Source: Tepidisphaeraceae bacterium (GTDB lineage: Bacteria; Planctomycetota; Phycisphaerae; Tepidisphaerales; Tepidisphaeraceae). Taken from it: DNA of 64,000 bases. The position numbers and the translations under genes are program-made. The notes beneath the pieces are model-generated. The model saw only the letters and a list, made by a program, of their open reading frames with translations, was not told the DNA's origin and did not search any database. Shown in pieces: positions 4,106 to 64,000 of the stretch (position 1 is the stretch's first letter; each line of letters opens with the position of its first letter). The stretch spans positions 1 through 64,000 of the forward strand of contig DASYHQ010000010.1 of the NCBI GenBank assembly GCA_035998445.1. Direction: 5' to 3'.

Positions 4106-7100
4106 TCAGGCCAGCAGTTCGAGCTCTGAAAGTTGGAGCATACCGTCGCCACTGTTGGCAGTGACGTTCAGCCGGTAAAACTTGTACGCACCGGGCGTGG
4201 CAACGGTGTACATGTTGCCGGCCAGGCGGGCGGGCCACGTCTGATTTGACCGGCTATCGAGGGTCGACCAAGACGAGTTATCGTTCGAGCCGAGCAACGT
4301 CCAGTTCCTCGGGTCGCGCGTCGGCGCATCGTTTCCACTGCGTACGATGTATTGCCGTACCGTTCGCGCGGCGTCGTTGGCGAACTGGTACTGAAGCCAT
4401 CCGGTCGGCGAGAACGTGAGCCACTTGGTCGCCGTGGTGCCGTCGAAGGCTTGTGCCGCGCCCTCGTTGGCCGACACGTTCTGCCCGCTCGCGGTGGCGG
4501 TGCCACCGGTCGCCCGATTGGCAATGACCGGGGCGACGCTTGCGGTGATTGCCGTGCCTCCGTCGGCGTAGAGTTGCGCGGCAGGTATGGCTTGGAACGT
4601 CGTCTGTCCCGGGCGTTGCCACAGCAGGCGGGCGACCGCCCCGCCGGTGTTCTCGTAGTACTCCATGCGGATCGACTTCTTCTCGCCTGCGCCGAAGCTG
4701 ATGGCGGCCGAGTCGTAACTCGTGGGGGCTTGATTGATCCATCCGCTGGCGACCAGCTGCTCGTTGACGTACAGGCGGATGCCGTCGTCCCCGGTAATGC
4801 GGAACACGTAGTTACCGGCCTCCTCGGCCTGCACCTCACCCGTCCACCGGGCGCTGTACGTATCCAGCCCGATCTCGGTCGCCGGCGAGCCGTTCCCCCA
4901 GTCAAAATTGATCGGCCCGTCGATGCGCGTCACCGTCGCACCGGTAAAGTCCATGTTGTCGTAGTACGTCGCGCTCAGGCCCGTGCCACTGGGCGCGGGC
5001 GGAGCGGAGGCGCCGAACGCGAAGTTGTCGTAATGGGCATAAGCGGCGCCCGAACCGATGTTGCGCGGGGTGAACCAGACGTATTCAAGGTCCGACCACG
5101 TGGCGTCGAGCGTGATGGTGGTCAGCGTGTCGGACGTGACGTCGACGGCACGGGTGACCGTCTGCGTGCTGCCCACCTTCTTGCCGACGATGTCGATGAC
5201 GGTGTTGGTGCTGTAGACCCTGCGAACTTGGAACGAGGTGAGCGTGAAGCCCCCATTATCGCCGCGCCGTGCCTCGAGCCGCTGGCCCCAGTCCTGCGTG
5301 CGGACGACCTGCGAGCCGCCGCCCGACTCGATCGTCAGGTTGGCCGAGCCGTTGTACGGCAAGGACCCACGGTTGAAGAACTTGTAGTTGCCCTCGGTGT
5401 AGGTGCCGTCGGTCGCGACCGGCCCCGAGAATGTCACGGTGGCCGTTCCGTTCGTGGCGGGTTGCGTCGTGGCGCTGGCCATTGCGCTGTTGGCCGAGCT
5501 GCCGGCGGCGTTCGTCGCTCGCACGCGATAGTAGTACGGCGTTGCAGCCGAAAGCCCGGTATTCGCATAGCTGGTCACGTTGGCGCCGACCGTGATGGCC
5601 GTCGGCGAGGCGAACGAACTGCTCGTGCTTCGCTCGATGATGAACCCGGTCTCATTGCCCGAGTTGTCGTTCCAGGTCAGGTTGATCTGGCTGGCCGACG
5701 TTGCGGTCGCGGCCAGGTTGGACGGTGCGGCCGGGGCGGTGGGATTTGGCGTGGTCGTCGACGAGGCGATGGAGACGTTGTCGATCGACACCAGATCGCC
5801 GGACCCGACGCCGTCGCGCTCGAACCGGACGATGAGGAATTCATACCCACCGCCGAAGTCGCGGGTGACCGAGTGGTTGGTCCACCCGGTGTTTGCGGTC
5901 GCGACGTCGCCACTGTCGTAGAGCGTGGTGGCGGCGAACGGGAACGACCCGAACTGCCGGGGGAACACGACGCCGTTGGGGGTGTACCAATCGTTGCGGT
6001 TGAAGTCGAAGTACGGCGAGCCGCTGGCGTTCACGCCGTACACCAGCATGCGAAGGCGGTTCTCCGCCCCGCCACCCTCGGTGTTGCGGTAGTCGAAACG
6101 CACGGTCTGCGAGCCGCGATTGGCCTTGTCGTTGCGAACCAACTGGAACGCGCCGTACGACGTGTTGTTGGTCGTGGCCTGAAGCGTACCGTCGGACTGG
6201 CGGACGAATGCGGTTCCACCATCGAAGGTGTACCAAGCGGGCGATCCATCGGTCAGCAACTTGGTGCTCAAAGGGTGGTATCCGGTCTGCCGCATCATCG
6301 ACGACGAGAAATCACCGTTGGTTAGCGCGTTCACCTGCCCGGCCGCCACGCTGACGGATTGGTTGATCGAGTTGGTTGCCCCCTTGTTGTCCCACACGGT
6401 CAACCGCACCACCTTGGCACCGGCCGAGGTGAAGGTGTGCGTGGGCTTCTCGCCCCACGCATCGATGGTGCCGTTGTTGTCGAAGTCCCACCCGTAGGCG
6501 GCGATGCGGTTACCGGCCGTCGTGGCGGCGTCGACATCGCTGGAGCCGGAGCCGTCGAAACGAACGGTGAGCCCGTCGCTGGCGGCGCTGGTGAACGTCG
6601 CGGTCGGCAGCGTGTTGCTGCCCTGCACGGTGAAGCTTGGGTTGTTGCGCAGTTCCAGGTACGAGTAGATCGGGTTCGGCACGGGCTGGAAGCTGTTGTT
6701 GGGGTCGAGCCGCTCGCCGGGCAGGATGTTCACGCGATTGTTGAAGCTGCCACCGCTGATCCAGCTGTCGCGGAAGACCGGGGGTCGGCCGACCTCCTGG
6801 TCGCCGTCAAAGGGAATCAACACGCCTTGGTCGAAGCCAACGACGGTGGTGTTCTCGATGCGGATGCTGCGCGGGTTGTAGTTGACGTCGATGCCGATGC
6901 GGACCTTTTGGGTCGACGATGTCGGGTCGGCGACGCCGGTCGACGTGCCGACGAGCGTGCTGTTGGTGACGGACAGGAAGCCCGCATAGACAAAGCTGAC
7001 GGCCGACCCGGAGCGGACCGACCCGCCGATCTGCGAGATCGAGCCGTAGGTGCCCCACGACTTAAAGTTGTCCAGCACGTTGCGCACCGGACTGCGCGGG

Positions 7101-9340
7101 CCGATCGCCTCGCGCAGCTGCCAGCCGTACTGGAACCCGCTGTAGGAGTTGGATGCCGTGTTGTTGCTGAACGACTGCCAGGGCACGTGCCACGCCTTGA
7201 TGTTGTTGGCCCCATAGGCGGTAACGAGGCTGTTGCGCAGCGTAAGGTCGGCAATTTGGTCGGGGTTGATGGGGTTACGGCTGTTGTGGACGTCGTCGGC
7301 GTCGCCGTACACCTCGAACGCCGGGCCGGCAGCAGAGGCGACGACGTTCCCGTCGGTGACGAACAGGCCCCCCCCTTGTAACCAGATCCCGTTGCCGAAG
7401 CTGCCGAAATCATGGTTGCCTGCGCGCCCACCGGGGGCATTGGGCTCGTACGTGCGGCCGTTGCCGCTGCCAATGTCCGAGGCGTTCGACCCGCGGGCCT
7501 TGATGGCAAGATTGTTCGTGAAGCTGCCCAGTTCGGTGCCCTCTTCGGTCATGAAGTGGGCGCCCAAGACGTCGTAGGAGACGTTGGAGTTAAAGTTGCC
7601 CTTGGACGAGTGCAGCGCGTAGCCCCAGCCTGAAGAGTTTTCGACGACGCACCCGTCGACGACTGCAGCGATGCCCGCCGGGGTGTTGTTGGACAGGTGG
7701 TGCATGTGCACCGCGTAACGGCCGCGCGCGTTGTTGTAGGTGGCGCCGGAGCCGGACTTGTCGGGGTCGGTCACGCGCACGTCCTTGCTGGTGCGCCCCA
7801 GGCCGTAGAACGAGGCGTTGTTGACGTTCACGCTCGCCGGACCAGTGAACATCGTGTGGCCGCGCCGGTTGTCGGCCGTGGTGGCGAGCCGCCAGTTCTC
7901 CGTCTCGAACGTGACGTTGCGCGTCAGGTTCCCGGCGTGCACCTTGAATCCGTAGCCGGCGGGCACGCTGTGGGCAAACCGGAGCGCGTTGCCGCCACCG
8001 TCCTGGTTGGTGAAGGTGATCGTGCGGCCGCTGATCGATTGGATCGTCAGCACCTCGTCGCGGAATCGCGAGTTGTCGGCGTCGGAGCCGTTGGCGTTGT
8101 AGCTCGTGCCGGTCAGCACGATGCGGTCGCCGACGCGCCATCCGGTCAGGTCTTGCTCGAACGTAAGGGACGTGGCGCCGGCCGAGACGTTGCCAAGGGT
8201 GACGCGGTCGGTCTTGTTGGCGCCGTGGATGTTGGCAATTCCCTCGACGATCAGGCCGCGCGAGATGGCCGAGCGGTCGACATTGAAGTCGATGGCGGTG
8301 CCCGAGGAGAACTGGATCAGCGCGGTATTGGCTGCGTTGACCGGATTGGCGGCCGTGCCGATGTTCAGCGTGCCGGCCTCGGCGACGACGAACGTGTCGA
8401 CGAGCAGGTGCGTGTTCTGCGCGGTCGCGAAGTTCAAGACCCCATCGACGCGCAATGTGTTGAGCCGCACCGGGTTGGACGCGACGTTGTAGGTGACGAC
8501 CTGCCCGTTCGGCACCCACGCTCTTGCGCCGGCGGCGGGGACAACACCGTTGAGCCAGGTGGTGGGGTTGGTCCAATCGCCCGAGCGGATCGCGACGTGG
8601 GTCGCGGTGCCGGTCGGCACGAGATCGAGGATCGCGTTGTGGTCGCTCTCGTGCGCCGCGTTGTGAGAATGCCCGGCGGGCGCGATGCGCACGTGGTTGG
8701 CGTCGAAGTTTCCCGTGTCCGCCACGAGCCGCATCCACTGTGTGCCAGCCGGCAGCATGATCCCCTTGATGGTGACATCGGCGAACGTGTCGGACGAACC
8801 GGTCCCCTTCACGACGAACAGGCCGCTGCGCGTGACCCCCGCCCCACCGATCTGACTTTGCGGCCCGAACTCCAGATGAAGGTGACCGCCGTAAGTGCCG
8901 ACCGATGCCGACGACGCGACGCGGACGGTGATGTCGTAGCGATGCGCCGCTTCGGGATTAATCGTATACCCAAGCCACTCCCCCGCGGCGATCGAGCCCA
9001 CCTTGTAGCCGCCACCGGCGTCGTTGGTGGAGTAGAGGTCGACGGCCTCACCCGTGCGGTACTGTCCACCGAGGTTACTGGCGGTCGTGTCGTTGTACGC
9101 GTTGCCCTGACCCCCGGTGTCGAAGTTCTCCGCCTGCACGATGGTGCTGCCCACGTGCGGAATCGGGACCGGCGTGCCACCATAGGCGGCCGCGAACAGA
9201 ACGCGCGACTCGCATGCTTCAACGATGACGGCACGACCGCGCCGTGTGGGACGCCTCAGCGGACGACGCGACGAGCACGACGAAGCAGGGACATCGGAAG
9301 TTGAACGTTCGACGTTCGAAGCAATTTTCGGCAGGGCCAT
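4106..9340 (-). CDS. Giant secreted G8-domain / beta-helix protein with CBM6, PKD, Fn3, PA14 and F5/8C modules
   Basis: 1744 residues. The ATG at 9340 is chosen because GGAGG lies 9 bases upstream; longer readings have no such site. Order of domains, approximate residues: basic N-terminus with ESRVLFAA (44-51, the planctomycete LExRxLxA-type export motif); CBM6 (60-222, from IVQAENFDTGG); G8 domain (245-375, SGDWTNPTTWLNGVVP... VDGVLNF); right-handed beta-helix (380-890); PKD (905-1000, YGWDFDNNGTID); a jelly-roll-like segment (1007-1193); fibronectin III (1202-1293); a second beta-sandwich (1296-1440); PA14 (1452-1588, RITGDDGIRLYVN); F5/8C discoidin-type module (1597-1744). In animals the G8 plus beta-helix pairing occurs in CEMIP/TMEM2-type hyaluronan-processing proteins; here a polysaccharide-binding or -cleaving role is inferred. 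It is divergently transcribed from the XylR-like regulator at 9657, which probably controls it. Confidence 0.9.
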   Translation of the reverse strand: MALPKIASNVERSTSDVPASSCSSRRPLRRPTRRGRAVIVEACESRVLFAAAYGGTPVPIPHVGSTIVQAENFDTGGQGNAYNDTTASNLGGQYRTGEAVDLYSTNDAGGGYKVGSIAAGEWLGYTINPEAAHRYDITVRVASSASVGTYGGHLHLEFGPQSQIGGAGVTRSGLFVVKGTGSSDTFADVTIKGIMLPAGTQWMRLVADTGNFDANHVRIAPAGHSHNAAHESDHNAILDLVPTGTATHVAIRSGDWTNPTTWLNGVVPAAGARAWVPNGQVVTYNVASNPVRLNTLRVDGVLNFATAQNTHLLVDTFVVAEAGTLNIGTAANPVNAANTALIQFSSGTAIDFNVDRSAISRGLIVEGIANIHGANKTDRVTLGNVSAGATSLTFEQDLTGWRVGDRIVLTGTSYNANGSDADNSRFRDEVLTIQSISGRTITFTNQDGGGNALRFAHSVPAGYGFKVHAGNLTRNVTFETENWRLATTADNRRGHTMFTGPASVNVNNASFYGLGRTSKDVRVTDPDKSGSGATYNNARGRYAVHMHHLSNNTPAGIAAVVDGCVVENSSGWGYALHSSKGNFNSNVSYDVLGAHFMTEEGTELGSFTNNLAIKARGSNASDIGSGNGRTYEPNAPGGRAGNHDFGSFGNGIWLQGGGLFVTDGNVVASAAGPAFEVYGDADDVHNSRNPINPDQIADLTLRNSLVTAYGANNIKAWHVPWQSFSNNTASNSYSGFQYGWQLREAIGPRSPVRNVLDNFKSWGTYGSISQIGGSVRSGSAVSFVYAGFLSVTNSTLVGTSTGVADPTSSTQKVRIGIDVNYNPRSIRIENTTVVGFDQGVLIPFDGDQEVGRPPVFRDSWISGGSFNNRVNILPGERLDPNNSFQPVPNPIYSYLELRNNPSFTVQGSNTLPTATFTSAASDGLTVRFDGSGSSDVDAATTAGNRIAAYGWDFDNNGTIDAWGEKPTHTFTSAGAKVVRLTVWDNKGATNSINQSVSVAAGQVNALTNGDFSSSMMRQTGYHPLSTKLLTDGSPAWYTFDGGTAFVRQSDGTLQATTNNTSYGAFQLVRNDKANRGSQTVRFDYRNTEGGGAENRLRMLVYGVNASGSPYFDFNRNDWYTPNGVVFPRQFGSFPFAATTLYDSGDVATANTGWTNHSVTRDFGGGYEFLIVRFERDGVGSGDLVSIDNVSIASSTTTPNPTAPAAPSNLAATATSASQINLTWNDNSGNETGFIIERSTSSSFASPTAITVGANVTSYANTGLSAATPYYYRVRATNAAGSSANSAMASATTQPATNGTATVTFSGPVATDGTYTEGNYKFFNRGSLPYNGSANLTIESGGGSQVVRTQDWGQRLEARRGDNGGFTLTSFQVRRVYSTNTVIDIVGKKVGSTQTVTRAVDVTSDTLTTITLDATWSDLEYVWFTPRNIGSGAAYAHYDNFAFGASAPPAPSGTGLSATYYDNMDFTGATVTRIDGPINFDWGNGSPATEIGLDTYSARWTGEVQAEEAGNYVFRITGDDGIRLYVNEQLVASGWINQAPTSYDSAAISFGAGEKKSIRMEYYENTGGAVARLLWQRPGQTTFQAIPAAQLYADGGTAITASVAPVIANRATGGTATASGQNVSANEGAAQAFDGTTATKWLTFSPTGWLQYQFANDAARTVRQYIVRSGNDAPTRDPRNWTLLGSNDNSSWSTLDSRSNQTWPARLAGNMYTVATPGAYKFYRLNVTANSGDGMLQLSELELLA

Positions 9341-9656
9341 TCTGATAATCCTCCGTGCAAGATTTGGCAAATGCGCACGCGTCCCGCGCGCATCGGAATT
9401 GTCCGTTTGCGACACGCCGATCAGGATTGAACTCGGTCGAGAGACGATGAGGAGACGTGGCCAAGCGGGCCAATCTCGGGGCTCACAATTAGACGAAAAT
9501 GGGGTAAAATTACGGTCTAATAGGATAGTATCACACGAATTGTCCCCCTCCCAATGTGAGCTTTGGTAAAGCGTTTCGGTTTTTTGGAAACGCAGCCACT
9601 GCGAATCGAGAGGGCGCGGAGAACGTCGTATCTGGCTTGTCGCTCGGAGGTTGTAC
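9341..9656. promoter_or_regulatory. Divergent promoter region with inverted repeats
   Basis: This 316-base gap separates the G8 protein gene (leftward) from the XylR-like regulator (rightward) and must hold both promoters. It is AT-richer than its flanks around 9481-9545. Visible structure: GCGTTTC at 9571-9577 and GAAACGC at 9587-9593 form a perfect 7-base inverted repeat with a 9-base spacer. GCTCACAATT (9481-9490) and AATGTGAGC (9553-9561) are near-complementary half-sites about 70 bases apart. These are candidate regulator sites; no binding specificity can be assigned from sequence alone. Confidence 0.45.
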
Positions 9657-10937
9657 ATGCCGCGTGATCTCCGCCATGCTGCTCACGTCGATCATGTCCG
9701 CCGCCCCGGTCGTAAGCCCCCGTACGAAGGCAAGTTGGTGGCAGGCCGGCCGTTGAACGCGCCGGTGCCGATGATCGCGGTGGCGGTCTATCCGCGCTGG
9801 TCGTATGACCGCGGGATCTTACGAGGCATCGCTGAGTTCACGGCAGGCCCGGCCCGCTTCCGACACGTGGTGCTCCCCGAGCCGGCTGACGATTCCGCTG
9901 GCATCCTCCGTAACAGCGCCGCCTTTTCGATCGCGGGGGTGATCGGCGCCGAAGGCCCTGTGCTCGACCTAGCGATAAGCCTCGGGTTGCCGTGCGTCTG
10001 CGTGACGGGCGTCGCGCGGCAGTTCCCGGCCCCGCGTGTGCTGAGCGACGACGTGCGCATCGGACGCGAGATCGCGCGTCATCTGCTCGATCAGGGCTAC
10101 CGCCGACTGGGATTCCTGGACTACCGCAGGTTCACGTGGTTCGGCCGCCAGCGTTGGCACGGCTTTCGCGCCGCTGCGGTCGCCGCGGGCGTCGAATGCC
10201 ATCGCTTTGCGGCCACGCCGACGTTGTCCCCCAGCTTTGCCCCGGACAGTCGGCGGCTCGATCGTTACCTCGATGCCTTCATCCGACGCGGTGGCGGTGG
10301 GCCGGCCGCGGTGATGGCCTCAACCGACCACCTCGGCGTCGAGGCGATTGCCGCTGCGGCCCGCGTGGGCCTTCGCGTGCCTGAGGACCTTGCCGTGGTT
10401 GGCGTGGACGACAACGACGTCGTCTTCGAATCGTGCGTGCCTGCGCTCACGTCGCTCGGGCAGCACACGGACCGCATCGGATACACGGCCGCCACGCTCC
10501 TGTCACGCCTGATCGCCGGCGACGGGCCGGTCCCCCAGCTTACGCTCGTTGAGCCTGGCGAACTGATCGTCCGCCGCTCCAGCGACCACATGGTCATCAG
10601 CGACCGCCTCGTCGCCGCCGCCCTTCAACAGGTGCGCGATCCGGAGACCGTCATCATCAAGGTTGAGACGATCGCCGCCCGACTGGGGGTGTCGCGCAAA
10701 ACGTTGGACGAACGATTCAAGGCAGTCATCGGACGCACACCCGCGGCGGAGGTGCGGCGGCTACAAGTCGAGCGTGCGCGGCGCCTCCTGCTGACGAGCG
10801 ACCTTTCCATTGGCGACGTCGCCGCCGCGGCAGGATTTTCGTCGGCCCAACAGCTCTCCGAAACTTTTCACCGCGAGACCGGCCTCACCCCCACCGACTG
10901 CCGCCGGCGCAGCCGCGCATCAAGTATGGGCCGCTGA
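9657..10937 (+). CDS. XylR-like transcriptional regulator (LacI-type sensor domain + AraC HTH)
   Basis: 426 residues. The ATG at 9657 follows GGAGG (9646-9650) by 6 bases, so it is preferred over the in-frame TTG at 9651. Residues about 38-285 form a periplasmic-binding-protein-like sugar sensor (MIAVAVYPRWSYDRGILRGI at the start, later DLAVVGVDDNDVVFE, a hallmark of LacI-family sensor domains). The last about 110 residues are an AraC/XylS double helix-turn-helix (IAARLGVSRKTLDERFK and IGDVAAAAGFSSAQQLSETF). This is the architecture of XylR, a xylose-responsive activator; the ligand here is unknown. It is divergent from the G8 giant at 4106-9340, the likely target. Confidence 0.9.
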   Translation: MPRDLRHAAHVDHVRRPGRKPPYEGKLVAGRPLNAPVPMIAVAVYPRWSYDRGILRGIAEFTAGPARFRHVVLPEPADDSAGILRNSAAFSIAGVIGAEGPVLDLAISLGLPCVCVTGVARQFPAPRVLSDDVRIGREIARHLLDQGYRRLGFLDYRRFTWFGRQRWHGFRAAAVAAGVECHRFAATPTLSPSFAPDSRRLDRYLDAFIRRGGGGPAAVMASTDHLGVEAIAAAARVGLRVPEDLAVVGVDDNDVVFESCVPALTSLGQHTDRIGYTAATLLSRLIAGDGPVPQLTLVEPGELIVRRSSDHMVISDRLVAAALQQVRDPETVIIKVETIAARLGVSRKTLDERFKAVIGRTPAAEVRRLQVERARRLLLTSDLSIGDVAAAAGFSSAQQLSETFHRETGLTPTDCRRRSRASSMGR

Positions 10938-56148: not shown

Positions 56149-56690
56149 TTAATCGTTGGGTGCCACCGTCCACGCGCCGAGCGATTCACCACTGTTAAGA
56201 ATCGGATCGGTACGAAGCTTGGGGTTGACCGGGTTGACGGTTTCCTCGGGCGCAAGTCGCGCGGCGTGTCCGTCGACAAAAAGGTAGTTGAACGTGCGGC
56301 TGTGGAGCTTGATCGTCGCAACGTCAAACCCACCGGCCGGAGCGCGCAGCTGATCCCGAGCCCGACGGACGATGACGGCAGTGCTTCCAAGCGCCGCGGC
56401 ACTCTTTTCCACCAGCAGCAGGCAGTTAGAAGACTCGCGGACGTTCGCGAACTTCCAAGGTACAGCCTCTCGGAGCGCGTTAGCAGCCACGCTCTTGTCC
56501 AAATAATTCCCGTTCCACCGAGGGTCAAGTGGCGTTGGCCATCGCTGTTGTTGGCGCCAACCGGCATCCGATAGGTGGACGTAGCGGTATCGAGGTCCGA
56601 GGGCCACAGAAACAACCGGGAGGGCCCCCCGAATGCCTCAGCCGCAATGTACTGGTCAGGAGTATCCAGGGCCGCGTCGGACAGACGCGC
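56149..56690 (-). pseudogene. C-terminal remnant of a pseudopilin, with one frameshift
   Basis: From about 56690 the minus strand reads RLSDAALDTPDQYIAAEAFG, LFLWPSDLDTATST and GANNSDGQRH. It then requires one extra base at about 56529 to continue as LDPRWNGNYLDKSVAANALR, CLLLVEKSAAALGS and [20 protein letters not shown], ending WTVAPND at 56149. The HxxxxxxxxxDG motif and WTxxPND end match the pseudopilin at 44651-45451. The prepilin leader and helix are missing; upstream sequence belongs to the truncated GH78-like gene in a different frame. This was probably the pseudopilin of the cassette that included the GH39-like gene. Confidence 0.75.
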
Positions 56691-57849
56691 TGCCGCGGGC
56701 GTACGTCATACCATCCAACTGCGGTCGCACGGCGAACCGGGCAAACCCCGGTGACAGCGGCACGATGCCGAGCACGCCACCGGTGAACAGATCGATCGGA
56801 CCGGTCGCAAAGCCGTGGCAAAGGCTGCCGGACGAGCCGAACGCGGCTTCGCCGTGGTCGTGGACGTTGAACTCCCAGATCGTCGGTGACCCCCCGGCGA
56901 CGATCGGCCCCCAGTGCCGCCGCACGCGGTCCAGCGCCGCCGCCACCCGCCCCGCGGCGGTCATGGCACCGAACACGAGGTGGTGCAGGTACAGTTCCGG
57001 CGCCAGCAGGTCGTCGGCCGCAATCGCAGCGACCAGCGCATCACGACGATGTTGCGGAGCGAGCCCCGACAGCAAGGCGATCGCCTGCGGCAGTTGGCTC
57101 GCCGGGGCGTCTGCGCCTTCCCAGTCCGCGTACGCGCCGAGGGCTTCGGACCACAGCCGCGCGTCGATGGCCGCCGCGACCGTGTCGGCCCGCCTGACGA
57201 GCCCGGCGGCCCCGTCGCCGCGCCCGAGCATCACTAGCAGGTCCGCCGTCGTCCGCAGGCCGTCGGCGTAGTACCAGTTCAGCACCGCCGTCGCCCGGCC
57301 GTTGCCCAAATCGCGCTCGCCGCCCGCGTTGAACGTGTACGACCACTCAACGAAGTTCCACACGCCCGGCGGCGCGACGATCAACCCGCCGGCGTCCTCC
57401 CACCCCCGCGCGACGGCGAACACACGCGTCATCGCTTCGATCTGCTCGGCGACCACCGTTGCGTCTGCGGTGTAGGCGTAATGCTCGGCAAGCATCATTG
57501 CCATGAAGAAGTTCGTCGCGGGGAACGCCAGCGACCGATTGCCGGGCGAGGGGCAGACGCCCATCACCAGCCCCTCCTCGGTCCGCTCGGTGGCGGCCAG
57601 GCGCAGGCAGCGAGCAGGTAGCGCCGCGTCACCGGTCACGCGCAGCCACGTCGCCTGCTCGACCAGCAGGTCGTTGACCGTGACCCTGCTATGCGTCACA
57701 ACCCCACATCGGACGCCCGCTCGCTCTGCCGTGGCGTTGCTCGGTTGGTCGATGTGGTCCTGCGGGCTGGCCTTGCCGTTGGACGTCGGGTACGGCGAAC
57801 ACCTGACCGACGGGCGCGTGCGTACGTTCATTCCTAACCGCCAAGGCAA
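56656..57849 (-). pseudogene. Truncated GH78-like six-hairpin glycosidase
   Basis: The frame from 57849 to 56656 has protein-like sequence only from about 57700 downstream. From there it matches the catalytic barrel of alpha-L-rhamnosidase-like enzymes: VNDLLVEQATWLRVTGDAAL, EGLVMGVCPSPGNRS, GVWNFVEWSYTFNAGGERDL, GEAAFGSSGSLCHGFATGPI and DLFTGGVLGIVPLSPGFARF. The N-terminal beta domains normal for the family (700 residues or more in total) are absent, and the C-terminus ends early at GMTYARGSASVRRGPGYS, where the pseudopilin remnant begins in another frame. It is most likely a deletion-damaged gene. A possible N-domain fragment lies on the opposite strand at 57764-57868. Confidence 0.65.
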
Positions 57850-57965: not shown

Positions 57966-60900
57966 TCACGAGCCGGTTGAAGACGCTGTGCGTAGCAAAA
58001 CGCGCAGCCACTCTTCGTCCGGGGACGGCGGTCCCGAAATGGGTGCCGGCTCCACCGTGGCCAGCAGGTCAACGAGTGGCGCCAACTGTGCGTCGAAGTA
58101 TGACGCGAGTATGAACATCTCCCTTCCGCGGCGACGATCCCACGGCTTGCCAGGCCGGTAATAGGTGTCGCCCGCCTCCCATCGCTGTCGGTCGAGTGGT
58201 TCCTTCGAACTGTCCCACTCAGAGTGTTGCTGCTCGCCCTTCGCGTACGGCACGACGTAGTCGACCGATCCGCGGATCGAGGAACCGCTCGGTGACTTGT
58301 AGTCGTACAGACCTGCTCCGCCCGACCGACGGGCGGCCAGCGCCAGTTCCATCAGGTTCTTCAGGCAACTGGTGTGGTAGCTCATCGCATCGCGGCGGTG
58401 GAGGTCCTCGCTGGTGCCGTCGGGATGAAGACCGGCGGCGATCAACCGTTTGGCGCCCGCCACGCCATGGTCCACCCACTTCTGCTCCCCGAGCGCGGCG
58501 CCGATCAGCAGCACGATCTTCAGCCGCTTGGCACCCCAGTTGTCGTTCTCGCCGATATTGCCCGTGCGGATTTGCAGGTCCGCCATCTTCCGCAGCCACG
58601 TTTCGGTCCGCTGGCGTTCATCGGGCGTCAGGCGGTCGCGCAGCAGGTCGTACGAGGTAATTGTGGCGTCGAGTTTGTTCTCGTTGATCGAGTTGCCCGT
58701 CGGCTCATACGTGCTAACCCACGCCACTAGAAGCTGCACGGCCTTATCTGCAAAACGCTCCTCTCCAGTTGCGGCCCATGCCCAACTGAGGGCCCGGAGG
58801 TGATCCATATCCCCCAGTGCGGCCTTGGTGAGCACACGATCCGGGTGGGCTTCCAAGTATCCCTGGTAAACAAGCACGGGAATCGGAGACGGCGTGACAG
58901 CCAACGCCATCTCGGCACGTGCGACCAGGCGTGCCAGCACTGCTTGCGCGTTCGGATCCGCAGCGATGACATCCGGCAGGCGCTTCCACTCCGCCGGCAG
59001 CAGCATCATCGAGGGAGGCGGTTGGATGTCGACCATCGCAGCCGGCTTCACGGTCGCTGGGGCTGGGGTGGCCGTCGGTGTGCCGACGAAGATGCCGCGA
59101 CCGCCGGTTCCGACGTACACGCGTCCGGGATGTTGCCGGTCGATTGCGATCACGTTCGGATTGGCCATCGCGACGCGGTCGTCGTTAGCGCGGGCCCAAG
59201 TCGCGCCGGCGTCGGTCGAGCGATATAGTGCCATGCCTGGCGTGGTCGAACCGGCGATCTCGCCGAACACGTACGTCGTCGCCGTCCTGTTGCCGAACAG
59301 GCTCGGGCCGACCGCGATTCGGTAGGCCCGGGTGATGCCCGTCAGCTTTGTCCATCGCTCGCCGCCATCGGTAGAACGAAACAGACCTTTGTCGTCGGCC
59401 GCCAGCCACAGCTCGCCCTCGATTCCGGGCGCGGCAGCGAGCGTGTGCTGCGTGAAGTGTTCCGATCCCTGCTGCGGCAAGTCGGCAATATGCTTGAAGT
59501 TCGCTCCGCCGTCCGTGCTGCGCAAGAATTTTCCGTCCCGGCGGTCGTAGATGTAAAACGTGTCGGGCCTGGCGCGATCGGCGACGAGCGGCTGGTACAG
59601 CGGGTAGATGAACCCGCCGTAAATCATGCCCTCGGGCGCGCCCGCTGCGAGCGTCCAAGTCTTGCCGAGGTCGGCCGTGCGATAGACGGCGGCGTCGTCG
59701 CCCATCGGCGCCCAGACCATCACGTCCGGGTTGGTCGCCGACACGGCGATCCGCCCGTTGCGCGCGCCGTCGAAGGGCTGGGTCGCGACCGGCGTCCAGG
59801 TCTGACCACCGTCGCGCGACGTGAAGGCGGTGCCGTGTTTTCCTTCCTTGTGACCGGCCGTGCGCGCCATGTGCAGTGGCTGCGTTTCGCAGAAGTCGAT
59901 CTTCGACGTGTCGCCGATGCCCCAGGGGTATCGATTGTCCTCCTTCGCAGGATTGGCAGACAGCGCTGCGGTCGGCTCGCCGTCCATCGGTGACGTGTGG
60001 ACGAAGCCATCCGTGTCCAGCACCGCGCTCAGCAGCGGCGCCGCGGGCACGGGCGGGCAGATCAGGTCGTTGATGCAGAGCAGTTCAAGCCCGGGATGCT
60101 CGCTGCGGAACACGGGCCGGTCGGCGGTGATGTCGTCGCAGCTCCACGCGCCGTACCAGAAGCCGGCCCAGATGCGCTTCGGGTTGCGCCGGTCGAACGC
60201 GATGTCGGATGGGCTCGCAAACGCCGCCGCGCGCCCCTGCCAGCCCGGCCACCCTTCGACGGTCCAGTTCTTCGTCTGCGCGGTGAAGCGGTCCCACGTC
60301 GCGCCGCCATCGCGCGAGCGGTACAGGGCCGAGTTGTACGCCCCCTTCGCCTCGCCGACCACGATCAGTCTGGGGTCGGCGGCGCTGACGGCGATGCCGG
60401 CGTAGCTCTTGCCCTTCTCGGGGGTGATGTCCTGCCACACGCTACCGTGCAACCGCCACACGCCACCGGTGCCGTCGTCACCGCGACCGGCGACGTAGAA
60501 GGCGCCGTCCGGCCCGGCCTCGCCGCGCATGGGGGAGAAGCCTTCGACCGGACCGTTGGTGCCACTGCCGGTAATGCGCCTCCAGGTGCGGCCGGCATCG
60601 CCGCTCGTATAAATGCCGCCGGGCGAGGCGGCGCGGTTCTTCTTATCGGGGGCCGCGCCGACGTAAACCGCCGGCGTGACGGACGACGTTTTGCCATCGG
60701 CCGGCGCGAAGGTGACGAACGTCAGGCCGCGCCACGCTTCACCCCGCGTGGGGAACGAGTCGACCGGCGACCAGCTCACGCCGCCATCGGTCGTGCGGAA
60801 CAGGCCGTCGTTGCGCGACGCGAAGTAGACGATGTTGGCGTCGACCGGGTGGACGGCGAGCCGCTCGCCCCCCTGTCGGTCGGCGCCGTTTCCCTCCATC

Positions 60901-63900
60901 GTCACGTCCTTTCCGTCGGGCGTGCGCAGGTTGGTGCGCTGCCACGTGCGCCCGCCATCGACGCTTTTGATCACGTCGGCGTTCTTCTCCCAGCGGCTGG
61001 CCCCTGCGGCGGCGTAGATCACGTTTGGGTCGCCCGGCGCGACGGCCAGCCCTTCCACACCCTGGAAGTTCTTCACCTCGAACGGCAGACCGTCCATCAG
61101 CGGCGTCCAGCGGTTGCCGGCATAGTCGCGCCGGAACGCGCCGCCCACGTCGGTGCGGATCAACAGCAGGTCGGCATCCGCAGGATGAGTAACCACGCCG
61201 GTGACGAACCCACCGGCCCCCATGGGAACCGACGCCCACGCGTGCGGCACGTCAGCCTGCATGCGAACCGCGGGCGATTCGGCCGGCGCGGCCATGTCCG
61301 CGCCGGCCGGTGGCGTCGCCGGGCGCACGACAACGTCGTCCAGCCACGCTTTACCGTCGCCTTGGATCATCAGCATGACCGAGGCGTGGCGCGTGTTGGC
61401 CGGCAGCCGCACGCGCTTCGAAAATTGCTGCCAGTCCCGCACGCCTGTCAGGTCGGCGACGATCTCCCAGCTTAGTTGCTTGTACTGGTCGTCCATCGCC
61501 TGAATGACGACCTGCGCCAGCTCAAATTCCTTCCCGACACCTGCCGGCTGGCTTTTGGTCGACAGCGAAATTCGGAACGCCTTGTCACCACCCAGCCGGT
61601 CGAGCTTCAGCGCTTGCGCCGCCGAACCGTGCGCCGGCCCGGCGATCGTCGCGAAGGCCATCGACGCGGGGGCGCTGACGAAGTCGTTCGTGTCCCGCTG
61701 CAACTTGAACTTGTCGGCGGTGGTCTTCCAGCCAAGCGACCATTCGTCGGGCGCAGCGTCACCGGTCGAGAAATTGCCGTTGGCCAGCACGCCGCTCTCG
61801 TCGGCGGCGCCGTGGGTTGCGGTCGCATCGTCATCGAACGACACGGCTCGCTTCGCCGGTTCGGGCTTGGCCGCGACGGGCGCAGCCGCAGCGGGGGTGA
61901 GGGGGATCCAGAACGCGCCGGCGCCGGCACTGCCAATGACCAGCCGGTCACCGGCGAAGGCCATCGGGTTGGCGTCGACGCGTTCGGGCAGCGATCGATC
62001 AAGCACCTGCCAGCTACGTGCGCCGTCGGTCGAGACGATCACGCCATCCATGGTCGCCGCTGCCGCGCGGTTCGGCACGGCACGGTCGAACGTGACGTGA
62101 GACGCGCCGGTGCGATCGTACGTGCGCTGCCACGTGCGGCCGGCGTCATCGCTGACGTAGACGCCCGCAGCCTTGGCATCGCCAGACACGCCAATCGCAA
62201 ACCGACCAGGCGTCGTCCAGTCGGCGGCGACGCTCATGGGACGGGTGCCGTTCGGCAGGTCGAGGCTCGCCTTCGCCCATTCCGCCGCTGCGGGGTCGTA
62301 ACGGTAGACGTGCCGCCCATCGCGGCTGATTGCCACCAGCACACCGTCGGCACCGATCGCGATCTCACGACCGATCGCCCAAATATCGTCGCGGAAGAAC
62401 TTCGTCCCGTTCGGCAAGCCCTGGCCCACCCAGCGCCACGAGCCGCCCCCGTCGTCGCTGCGGTAGACGCCCCCCTTGTCCGGCTCCACCTCGCCCGACA
62501 CGGCCAGGTACAGCACGCCCGCCTCGCGCGGATCGGCGGCGATCGAGTTGCAACGGTGTTTGCCCATGTCGGGCAGGCCTTCCATCGGCGACTTCGACCA
62601 CGTCTGCCCGCGGTCGGCACTGGCGTAAACCAGGTTGGCCGCCCACGCGCCCGGCTCGCTCGGCCCCACGCCCCACAGGCGGTTCAGTTCCATGGGGCTT
62701 GCGGTCAAATCCTTGATGTTCGCCGCCAAGCGCACCTGGTCGAACGTCTCACCGCCGTTCGTGCTGCGGAAGTAGCCGTTGTCGGCCATGCCCAGGTGAA
62801 CGAGGCCCGGGTCGGTCGGGTCCTGCAGGAGGTTGTGGATAACCGTGACCTCAATGCCATCGATGCTCAGCTTCCAGTTCTTGCCCCCGTCGTGGCTTTG
62901 GTAGAGCGCGTACCAGTCCGTGAAGAACCAGTGGTTCGGGTCGCGCGGATCGATGGTGACGGTGCCGAGCGCTTTGCCGAAGTGCGTCCAGCCGCCGTCC
63001 TTTTTGTCGTTCTCCGATGATGCGTACCAGCCGGCGTCGTGGATGCCCTCTCGCTCGATGCGCTGCCACTTGGCACCACCGGCAGGCATGCGGAAGAACA
63101 TGCCGTCCCCATTGGCGACCACGACGAAATTGGGACCGGCGGCCAGCGCGTTCCAGCCCTCGGCCCCCTTCCACGTCGCGCCGCTCGTGTCCAGCCCCTC
63201 GACGAGCGGCTGCCAAGTGGCGCCGGCGTCGGTGCTAATGCGAACGCCAGGCTTACCGTCAAAGGTGCCGTACAGGCGGGCCGGGTTCTTGGGATCCTGC
63301 AAGATCTCCTTCGGCCCTTCATCGTCGAGTTTCTTCCACGACGCGCCACCGTCCTGCGTGCGATAGAATCCACCTGGGAACTCCAGATGTTTCTGGTGGA
63401 CCCAATCCTTCCGCGGTACGGTGCTGAGCCACAGCCGCTCGGGGTTCGCCCGATCGACCACGAGCCCACCGGGGTTGAGTCCCTCGGGGCCCAGCTTCGT
63501 CCACGTCTTGCCGTTGTCGTCGCTCCGATGCACGCCGGTGTTGATGGCGGCGGCGTAGACGACGTCGGGGTTGCTCGGGTCGCGCGCCAGCACGAAGCCT
63601 GAGTTGCGGCGGCTGCCGTTGACGAAACTGGCCTTGAGCGTCTGCTCGAACGTCGCCCCGCCATCAGTGCTGACGTAGACGCCCTCTTGCGGATCCCATG
63701 CCGAGCCAAGGGCGACGATGAGGTGGTCCGGGTTGCGCGGATCGACAACGAGGCCGCGCGTAGAGTAATTGCCGCGCCGGGCCGGCAGGTTTCCCTGCAA
63801 CATCCGCCACGTGTTGCCCCCGTCGTCGCTGCGGTACGGCCCGCTGACGTCGGTGTAGGCGTAGGCACGGTTGGCATCGGTCGGGTGAAGGACGACGTTC

Positions 63901-64000
63901 TGAATGAACCCACCGCCACCGATGCGGCTCGAGCGCCAGTCGCCGTACTGCCGGGCGTCGGTCGGCGCCCAAGAGGTGTGACTTGGCTTCGCGGTGGCGT
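57966..64000 (-). CDS. Giant double BNR-propeller protein with C-terminal alginate-lyase-type domain (5' end beyond window)
   Basis: The frame is open from the right edge to TGA 57966-57968; 2010 complete residues are visible. It continues upstream of the first internal Met at 63803 (KPSHTSWAPTDARQYGDWRS and a further propeller blade), so the start and signal peptide lie outside. Residues about 1-690 are a propeller region with some eleven Asp-box motifs (SDDGGNTW, STDGGATF, SDDNGKTW). About 730-900 is a CBM-like jelly roll (NGNFSTGDAAPDEWSLGW). About 915-1640 is a second propeller region with nine more boxes (SVDGGRTW, SRDGGATW). About 1655-2010 is an alpha/alpha-barrel alginate_lyase-type domain (NIGENDNWGAKRLKIVLLIG, HPDGTSEDLHRRDAMSYHTS, QPHERE-type His/Tyr/Asn residues visible). 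The propellers resemble GH74/sortilin repeats. A role in binding and cleaving acidic polysaccharide outside the cell is inferred. Confidence 0.88.
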   Translation of the reverse strand, partial: ATAKPSHTSWAPTDARQYGDWRSSRIGGGGFIQNVVLHPTDANRAYAYTDVSGPYRSDDGGNTWRMLQGNLPARRGNYSTRGLVVDPRNPDHLIVALGSAWDPQEGVYVSTDGGATFEQTLKASFVNGSRRNSGFVLARDPSNPDVVYAAAINTGVHRSDDNGKTWTKLGPEGLNPGGLVVDRANPERLWLSTVPRKDWVHQKHLEFPGGFYRTQDGGASWKKLDDEGPKEILQDPKNPARLYGTFDGKPGVRISTDAGATWQPLVEGLDTSGATWKGAEGWNALAAGPNFVVVANGDGMFFRMPAGGAKWQRIEREGIHDAGWYASSENDKKDGGWTHFGKALGTVTIDPRDPNHWFFTDWYALYQSHDGGKNWKLSIDGIEVTVIHNLLQDPTDPGLVHLGMADNGYFRSTNGGETFDQVRLAANIKDLTASPMELNRLWGVGPSEPGAWAANLVYASADRGQTWSKSPMEGLPDMGKHRCNSIAADPREAGVLYLAVSGEVEPDKGGVYRSDDGGGSWRWVGQGLPNGTKFFRDDIWAIGREIAIGADGVLVAISRDGRHVYRYDPAAAEWAKASLDLPNGTRPMSVAADWTTPGRFAIGVSGDAKAAGVYVSDDAGRTWQRTYDRTGASHVTFDRAVPNRAAAATMDGVIVSTDGARSWQVLDRSLPERVDANPMAFAGDRLVIGSAGAGAFWIPLTPAAAAPVAAKPEPAKRAVSFDDDATATHGAADESGVLANGNFSTGDAAPDEWSLGWKTTADKFKLQRDTNDFVSAPASMAFATIAGPAHGSAAQALKLDRLGGDKAFRISLSTKSQPAGVGKEFELAQVVIQAMDDQYKQLSWEIVADLTGVRDWQQFSKRVRLPANTRHASVMLMIQGDGKAWLDDVVVRPATPPAGADMAAPAESPAVRMQADVPHAWASVPMGAGGFVTGVVTHPADADLLLIRTDVGGAFRRDYAGNRWTPLMDGLPFEVKNFQGVEGLAVAPGDPNVIYAAAGASRWEKNADVIKSVDGGRTWQRTNLRTPDGKDVTMEGNGADRQGGERLAVHPVDANIVYFASRNDGLFRTTDGGVSWSPVDSFPTRGEAWRGLTFVTFAPADGKTSSVTPAVYVGAAPDKKNRAASPGGIYTSGDAGRTWRRITGSGTNGPVEGFSPMRGEAGPDGAFYVAGRGDDGTGGVWRLHGSVWQDITPEKGKSYAGIAVSAADPRLIVVGEAKGAYNSALYRSRDGGATWDRFTAQTKNWTVEGWPGWQGRAAAFASPSDIAFDRRNPKRIWAGFWYGAWSCDDITADRPVFRSEHPGLELLCINDLICPPVPAAPLLSAVLDTDGFVHTSPMDGEPTAALSANPAKEDNRYPWGIGDTSKIDFCETQPLHMARTAGHKEGKHGTAFTSRDGGQTWTPVATQPFDGARNGRIAVSATNPDVMVWAPMGDDAAVYRTADLGKTWTLAAGAPEGMIYGGFIYPLYQPLVADRARPDTFYIYDRRDGKFLRSTDGGANFKHIADLPQQGSEHFTQHTLAAAPGIEGELWLAADDKGLFRSTDGGERWTKLTGITRAYRIAVGPSLFGNRTATTYVFGEIAGSTTPGMALYRSTDAGATWARANDDRVAMANPNVIAIDRQHPGRVYVGTGGRGIFVGTPTATPAPATVKPAAMVDIQPPPSMMLLPAEWKRLPDVIAADPNAQAVLARLVARAEMALAVTPSPIPVLVYQGYLEAHPDRVLTKAALGDMDHLRALSWAWAATGEERFADKAVQLLVAWVSTYEPTGNSINENKLDATITSYDLLRDRLTPDERQRTETWLRKMADLQIRTGNIGENDNWGAKRLKIVLLIGAALGEQKWVDHGVAGAKRLIAAGLHPDGTSEDLHRRDAMSYHTSCLKNLMELALAARRSGGAGLYDYKSPSGSSIRGSVDYVVPYAKGEQQHSEWDSSKEPLDRQRWEAGDTYYRPGKPWDRRRGREMFILASYFDAQLAPLVDLLATVEPAPISGPPSPDEEWLRVLLRTASSTGS

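Follow-up and report, generated by a model that had tools for sequence, protein, structure and literature searches.

The minus-strand gene at the far end of the 64,000-nucleotide stretch of DNA analysed here (the window; G000:C10:1-64000) encodes a secreted protein of 2037 amino acids, which unites two different GH74-type modules, a CBM-like module and an alginate-lyase-like module. Its novelty lies in the combination of domains; the folds themselves are already known, and the protein is not a new kind of system. Sequence comparison is best explained by the natural fusion of two genes that lie side by side elsewhere, plus an added GH74 module. The fact that the split genes adjoin in another bacterium suggests that the parts work together on one complex polysaccharide. 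On balance, we regard the protein as a secreted depolymerase of polysaccharides that combines several catalytic activities and arose from the fusion of separate enzymes.

Domain architecture of the fusion protein

In the ORF listing of the window the reading frame runs on the minus strand from 57966 past the window end at 64000 (Table 1). With the start codon region taken from the adjoining contig bases, the full gene spans C10:57966-64079 (-) from an ATG, or extends to 64094 if an upstream TTG is used, and the window edge removes 79-94 bases of its 5' part. The product begins with an N-terminal signal peptide (the 27-aa signal-peptide region lies outside the window), and its domains are connected by Pro/Ala-rich linkers. 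Strict Asp boxes of the form [ST]xDxGxx[WF] number 18, with 9 in aa 84-650 and 9 in aa 1039-1628, against a mean of 0.13 and a maximum of 2 in 1000 shuffles. Each propeller region measures ~690-730 aa and is thus as large as an entire GH74 module with its two 7-bladed propellers. Hence, the chain probably contains four propellers, two per Asp-box block.

An earlier note on this DNA, made from the letters alone, had described over 2000 residues with about twenty Asp boxes in two blocks, a fair count. Its domain reading (GH74-type propellers, a CBM-like module and an alginate-lyase-type α/α barrel) agrees with the Pfam hits, structure matches and models. The two Asp-box propeller regions that it recognised are real as blocks, although each of them is probably two propellers. 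A sortilin/Vps10 identity was dropped, as the Pfam Sortilin-Vps10 matches are Asp-box cross-matches, whereas the GH74 matches are full length.

Table 1. Features of the fusion protein, with nucleotide positions in the window
Feature	Position	Strand	Basis
Whole ORF inside the window (protein P0001, 2037 aa)	57966..64000, gene on to C10:64079	(-)	ORF and contig sequence
Module A, aa 44-729, tandem propeller with 9 Asp boxes, GH74-like but in a clade of its own	61893..63950	(-)	sequence matches, tree
D77 (YTDVSG), aligned with GH74 catalytic acid 1 (D35, chain 1sqj)	63849..63851	(-)	alignment
D433 (MADNGYF), aligned with GH74 catalytic acid 2 (D465, chain 1sqj)	62781..62783	(-)	alignment
CBM-like β-sandwich, aa 761-923, which recurs beside module A and beside a GDSL esterase	61311..61799	(-)	model, structure search
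Module B, aa 944-1671, GH74 xyloglucanase-type, 9 Asp boxes	59067..61250	(-)	sequence matches, tree
D977 (RTDVGG), GH74 catalytic acid 1 position	61149..61151	(-)	alignment
D1355 (VLDTDGF), GH74 catalytic acid 2 position	60015..60017	(-)	alignment
PF05426 α/α-barrel lyase domain, aa 1683-2037	57969..59033	(-)	Pfam, model
N1847-W1848, with the domain's invariant Asn; no His at or next to the PL5 H192 / PL38 H243 position	58536..58541	(-)	alignments
R1895-R1896...Y1901, with R1896 and Y1901 family-invariant	58377..58397	(-)	alignments

The C-terminal lyase domain

The C-terminal domain scores 83.1 bits with the Pfam profile PF05426 (Alginate_lyase) against a curated cut-off of 22.2. An AlphaFold2 model built from 19 sequences (pLDDT 91.7, pTM 0.90) forms a barrel whose best PDB match is BoPL38, followed by PL17, GAG lyases and PL5, at 14-17% identity. 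The lyase-like nature of this domain, on which the earlier note had staked its reading, is thus upheld. Clear similarity to the characterised PL38 enzymes was not found at this level of identity: a single-sequence search reached 3nfv with E 8e-6 and left 8bdq unmatched, while a profile search of the lyase against 3nfv and 8bdq gave E 4e-14 and 8e-7, respectively. The domain within the fusion is devoid of a signal peptide of its own, whereas its single-domain relatives appear to carry one. One such single-domain copy of the lyase branch, apparently secreted, is found in the same genome (L008:6488-7828 on G000:C24; 447 aa, 39%).

Across 20 lyase sequences, from Planctomycetota, Verrucomicrobiota, Bacteroidota, Lentisphaerota and Abditibacteriota with one further record labelled Blastochloris, the residues N1847, K1851, R1896 and Y1901 never vary. 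In the PL5 lyase A1-III the residue aligned with Y1901 is the catalytic Tyr Y246; PDB chains of the mutants Y246F and H192A fix both active-site positions. The His partner of this Tyr (H192 in A1-III; H243 in BoPL38) is absent from the window domain in either register, the corresponding segment being N1847-W1848-G1849. The Tyr of the PL5 enzymes is therefore present without the NNH motif that bears their catalytic His, and the PL38 catalytic pair (Y298, H243) is likewise incomplete, Y1901 being retained and the His absent. In BoPL38 the base is the Tyr when mannuronate is the substrate (syn) and the His when it is guluronate (anti) (PMC13169297), and the PL38 members studied so far are active on alginate, glucuronan or GAGs (PMC13027841). 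Given that the window domain offers no His for anti-elimination, the alignments suggest that it most likely uses its Tyr for syn-elimination at a residue of the ManA or GlcA type. Galacturonate side chains, as in moss and root-hair xyloglucan, are not claimed as its target, since an active site with Tyr alone is better suited to syn-elimination (GlcA/ManA) than to anti-elimination (GalA).

With the His of the PL5 and PL38 enzymes lost, the lyase could be weak or inactive. At the extreme, the barrel would be a degenerate lyase reduced to binding the polymer, leaving the GH74-type modules to cut it, and the N-W-G segment without a counterpart to PL5 H192 or PL38 H243 is in keeping with this. We consider such degeneration unlikely, because 20 relatives spread over several phyla all retain the active-site Tyr, Arg and Asn, implying that an active site is under selection, and because BoPL38 can use its Tyr as the base on mannuronate (PMC13169297).

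Two types of GH74-related modules

Module B is matched over its full length by GH74 structures (6p2m, E 1e-74, covering 913-1644 of the window fragment; 2cn2, E 3e-72), is 35% identical to 2cn2, and groups with both of these xyloglucanases in the tree with support of 100/100. A second GH74-like gene of the same locus, outside the window (C10:70400-74167; L055:6901-10668), encodes 1256 aa with fn3 and is 32% identical to module B. Module A has its best solved-structure match by sequence in the GH74 enzyme 1sqj (E 2e-28) and shares only ~26% identity with module B. On the tree it does not group with GH74 and instead falls in a separate clade of 13 sequences (12 Planctomycetota genomes, 1 Abditibacteriota; support 100/99), with long branches flagged by the tree tool. 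Modules A and B are thus different types, the exact relationship of A to GH74 being less firm on account of the long branches. The module-A clade is present in 10/392 phylum genomes, with distant members counted, and in 9/397 class genomes.

The catalytic acids of OXG-RCBH (1sqj) are D35 and D465, the role of these aspartates being known from the published GH74 structures. The numbering of the 1sqj chain agrees with this, as it places residue 35 in a TDIGG motif and residue 465 in an SGIGD motif. An alternative location of the second GH74 acid in an IDYAE motif was rejected on the same numbering, by which D465 falls within the S(A/G)xGD motif. All 14 aligned rows, every aligned module-A relative among them, retain the two catalytic aspartates. 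Their retention in modules A and B predicts that both are hydrolases rather than mere grips. The substrate of module A need not be xyloglucan, given its identity of only ~26% to GH74.

Processivity of GH74 enzymes from Paenibacillus needs a tandem Trp (PMC10317168); this pair is a criterion for the processive members only and does not define the family. In the alignment module B has KGA-YNS against DLWWPRD, i.e. GA-Y for WW, and the pair is absent from module A as well. With the tandem Trp missing, module B is expected to be non-processive, and is probably a non-processive enzyme of the GH74 endo-β-1,4-glucanase/xyloglucanase type.

The module between the two blocks (aa 761-923) has no significant Pfam match, and its model (pLDDT 70) is a CBM4/16/22-like sandwich, for which Foldseek returns CBM70/16/4/22 structures with E ~1e-6 to 1e-5. 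Its relatives follow module A in L017, L048, L049, L050, L051 and L062; at L021 one occurs after a more distant propeller and another ahead of a GDSL esterase. Other module-A proteins have acquired different partners: module A with its CBM-like module is fused to two CE2/GDSL esterase units in a 1579-aa protein (L048:8090-12826), and module A is fused to DUF4380 in L047:8079-11249, of which L069:7033-10212 encodes a close relative of similar length. This range of partners (lyase, CE2 esterases, DUF4380) is what a binding platform would show, and GH74 enzymes can be processive (PMC10317168), which together lend some substance to the proposal of the earlier note that the enzyme is processive or scaffold-like, with propellers that grip the polymer. 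Nevertheless, we judge it improbable that they are non-catalytic grips or scaffolds holding the polymer for a processive lyase: both catalytic aspartates are kept in modules A and B and in all aligned module-A relatives, the Trp pair of processive enzymes is found in neither module, and module A also occurs with the CBM-like module alone, lacking any catalytic partner (L017, L051).

Origin of the fusion and genomic context

A split version of the protein is seen in an Abditibacterium MAG (L017), where a lyase gene (370 aa, 44% identical to the window lyase) and a module A+CBM gene (905 aa; 51% for module A and 31% for the CBM) adjoin on one strand with 158 bases between them. By tree path length this locus is the nearest relative of both window parts. 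This, taken together with the adjacency of the two genes, supports the reading of the window protein as a fusion of genes adjacent elsewhere to which a GH74 module was added. At L021 and L023 a more distant Asp-box propeller gene lies within ~3 kb of a lyase gene. Relatives of the lyase are fused to a sulfatase in Rhodopirellula europaea 6C (L025:6357-9029) and Stieleria tagensis (L027:6306-10139), and a sulfatase adjoins one at L019.

The full architecture was found in the window's genome only, in ~790 genome searches of Planctomycetota (392 phylum and 397 class, with some overlap); the lyase branch occurs in 5/392 and 4/397 of these partly overlapping samples. When the lyase alignment was used to scan 84,980 species genomes, an approach that recovers only loci matching its short patterns and may leave out the window's own genome, it yielded 18 loci, none with same-frame propellers. 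A PF05426 search across 21 genomes added nothing of use. The earlier note was therefore right to call the pairing unusual, the phylum and class samples holding no other copy of the exact architecture. That the gene is known from one assembly of 64 contigs, and the full fusion from no other genome searched, might point to an assembly or gene-boundary artefact of neighbouring genes, yet this is very improbable for a single open frame of 2037 codons that has Pro/Ala linkers where the domains meet, contains no signal peptides internally, keeps an even G+C across the joints (0.64-0.70) and lies in the middle of a 157 kb contig.

A LacI-type or GntR-type regulator and an N-methylation gene (pseudopilin, some DUF1559) lie near module A at the window locus and at L017, L047, L069, L070 and L071, with the module-A genes of L047 and L069 situated behind the LacI regulator and the N-methylation gene. 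The window locus also contains a GH78-like gene, a GH29-type fucosidase and XylR-like regulators. The GH78-like rhamnosidase gene (56656-57849 (-)), directly downstream of the giant gene, is possibly a remnant: only the six-hairpin domain was matched and the N-terminal β domains are missing. In G543 the module-A gene stands beside genes for a GH1 β-glucosidase, L-arabinose isomerase, a class II aldolase-type protein, an apiosidase and a sulfatase. These neighbourhoods fit a plant or algal heteropolysaccharide, without naming which. Elsewhere in the window (4106-9658 (-)) is encoded an 1850-aa protein with CBM6, G8, CEMIP-type β-helix, PKD, fn3, PA14 and F5/8C domains; the CEMIP/G8 combination recalls hyaluronan-degrading proteins of animals.

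Proposed mode of action and its significance

The interpretation of the protein as a multicatalytic depolymerase has as its observed support the domain identities, the lyase and CBM-like folds, the conservation of the acids and of the Tyr and Arg, and the two-gene version found in a different phylum; from these we infer the catalytic activity, substrate and synergy of the parts. Modules A and B would be GH74-superfamily hydrolases, in which the Asp pair cuts the chain in the groove between two 7-bladed propellers, module A representing an uncharacterised sister type to the GH74 endo-β-1,4-glucanase/xyloglucanase type of B. The β-sandwich between them would bind the polymer, and the C-terminal barrel would β-eliminate a uronic-acid residue of the same material with its Tyr as base/acid. 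The gain would be one of proximity, with three activities on one flexible chain directed at different bonds of one heteropolysaccharide.

We advance more tentatively, as a possibility somewhat short of an even chance, that module A founds a GH family sister to GH74, that A+CBM constitutes a reusable catalytic platform coupled to lyases, acetyl esterases and others, and that the barrel founds a Tyr/Arg-only lyase family within PF05426. If true, the window protein would unite three activities in a single chain, those of two hydrolase types and of a lyase.

One chain would thus combine hydrolase and lyase mechanisms. The split genes of the other phylum show which two partners belong together, so that the functions of the uncharacterised propeller clade and of the likewise uncharacterised PF05426 branch become testable as a pair: one of them should produce, or lay open, the substrate on which the other acts. 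Polysaccharide systems of Planctomycetota are less understood than the PULs of Bacteroidota. The module-A clade is repeatedly coupled to lyases, esterases and DUF4380, and its genes often follow those of a LacI regulator and a pseudopilin, which provides a marker for polysaccharide loci in Planctomycetota.

Comparison with known systems

Among known enzymes, the GH74 xyloglucanases (6p2m, 2cn2, 6mgj) resemble the window protein in the full-length match to module B, the tandem Asp-box propellers and both catalytic Asp; they differ in that module B is without the processive tandem Trp and sits between a CBM-like module and a lyase, and in that module A lies outside their clade. OXG-RCBH, the oligoxyloglucan reducing-end-specific cellobiohydrolase of GH74, has both acids aligned with those of module A, but the latter is only ~26% identical to the GH74-type module B and belongs to a separate, well supported clade. 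The PL38 lyases (BoPL38, 3nfv/8bdq) are the best fold match of the C-terminal barrel and share its catalytic Tyr and nearby Arg, whereas the window lyase, at 14-17% identity, is without the PL38 His and is fused to GH74-type modules. The PL5 alginate lyases (A1-III, Smlt1473) share the Pfam family PF05426 and the Asn-Arg-Tyr core; the window lyase differs from them in being without a His at the H192/H168 position and is only remotely similar in sequence. The sulfatase-PF05426 fusions of L025 and L027 likewise place a relative of the lyase C-terminal to another polysaccharide-active enzyme, but in these the partner is a sulfatase, while that of the window lyase is a propeller hydrolase.
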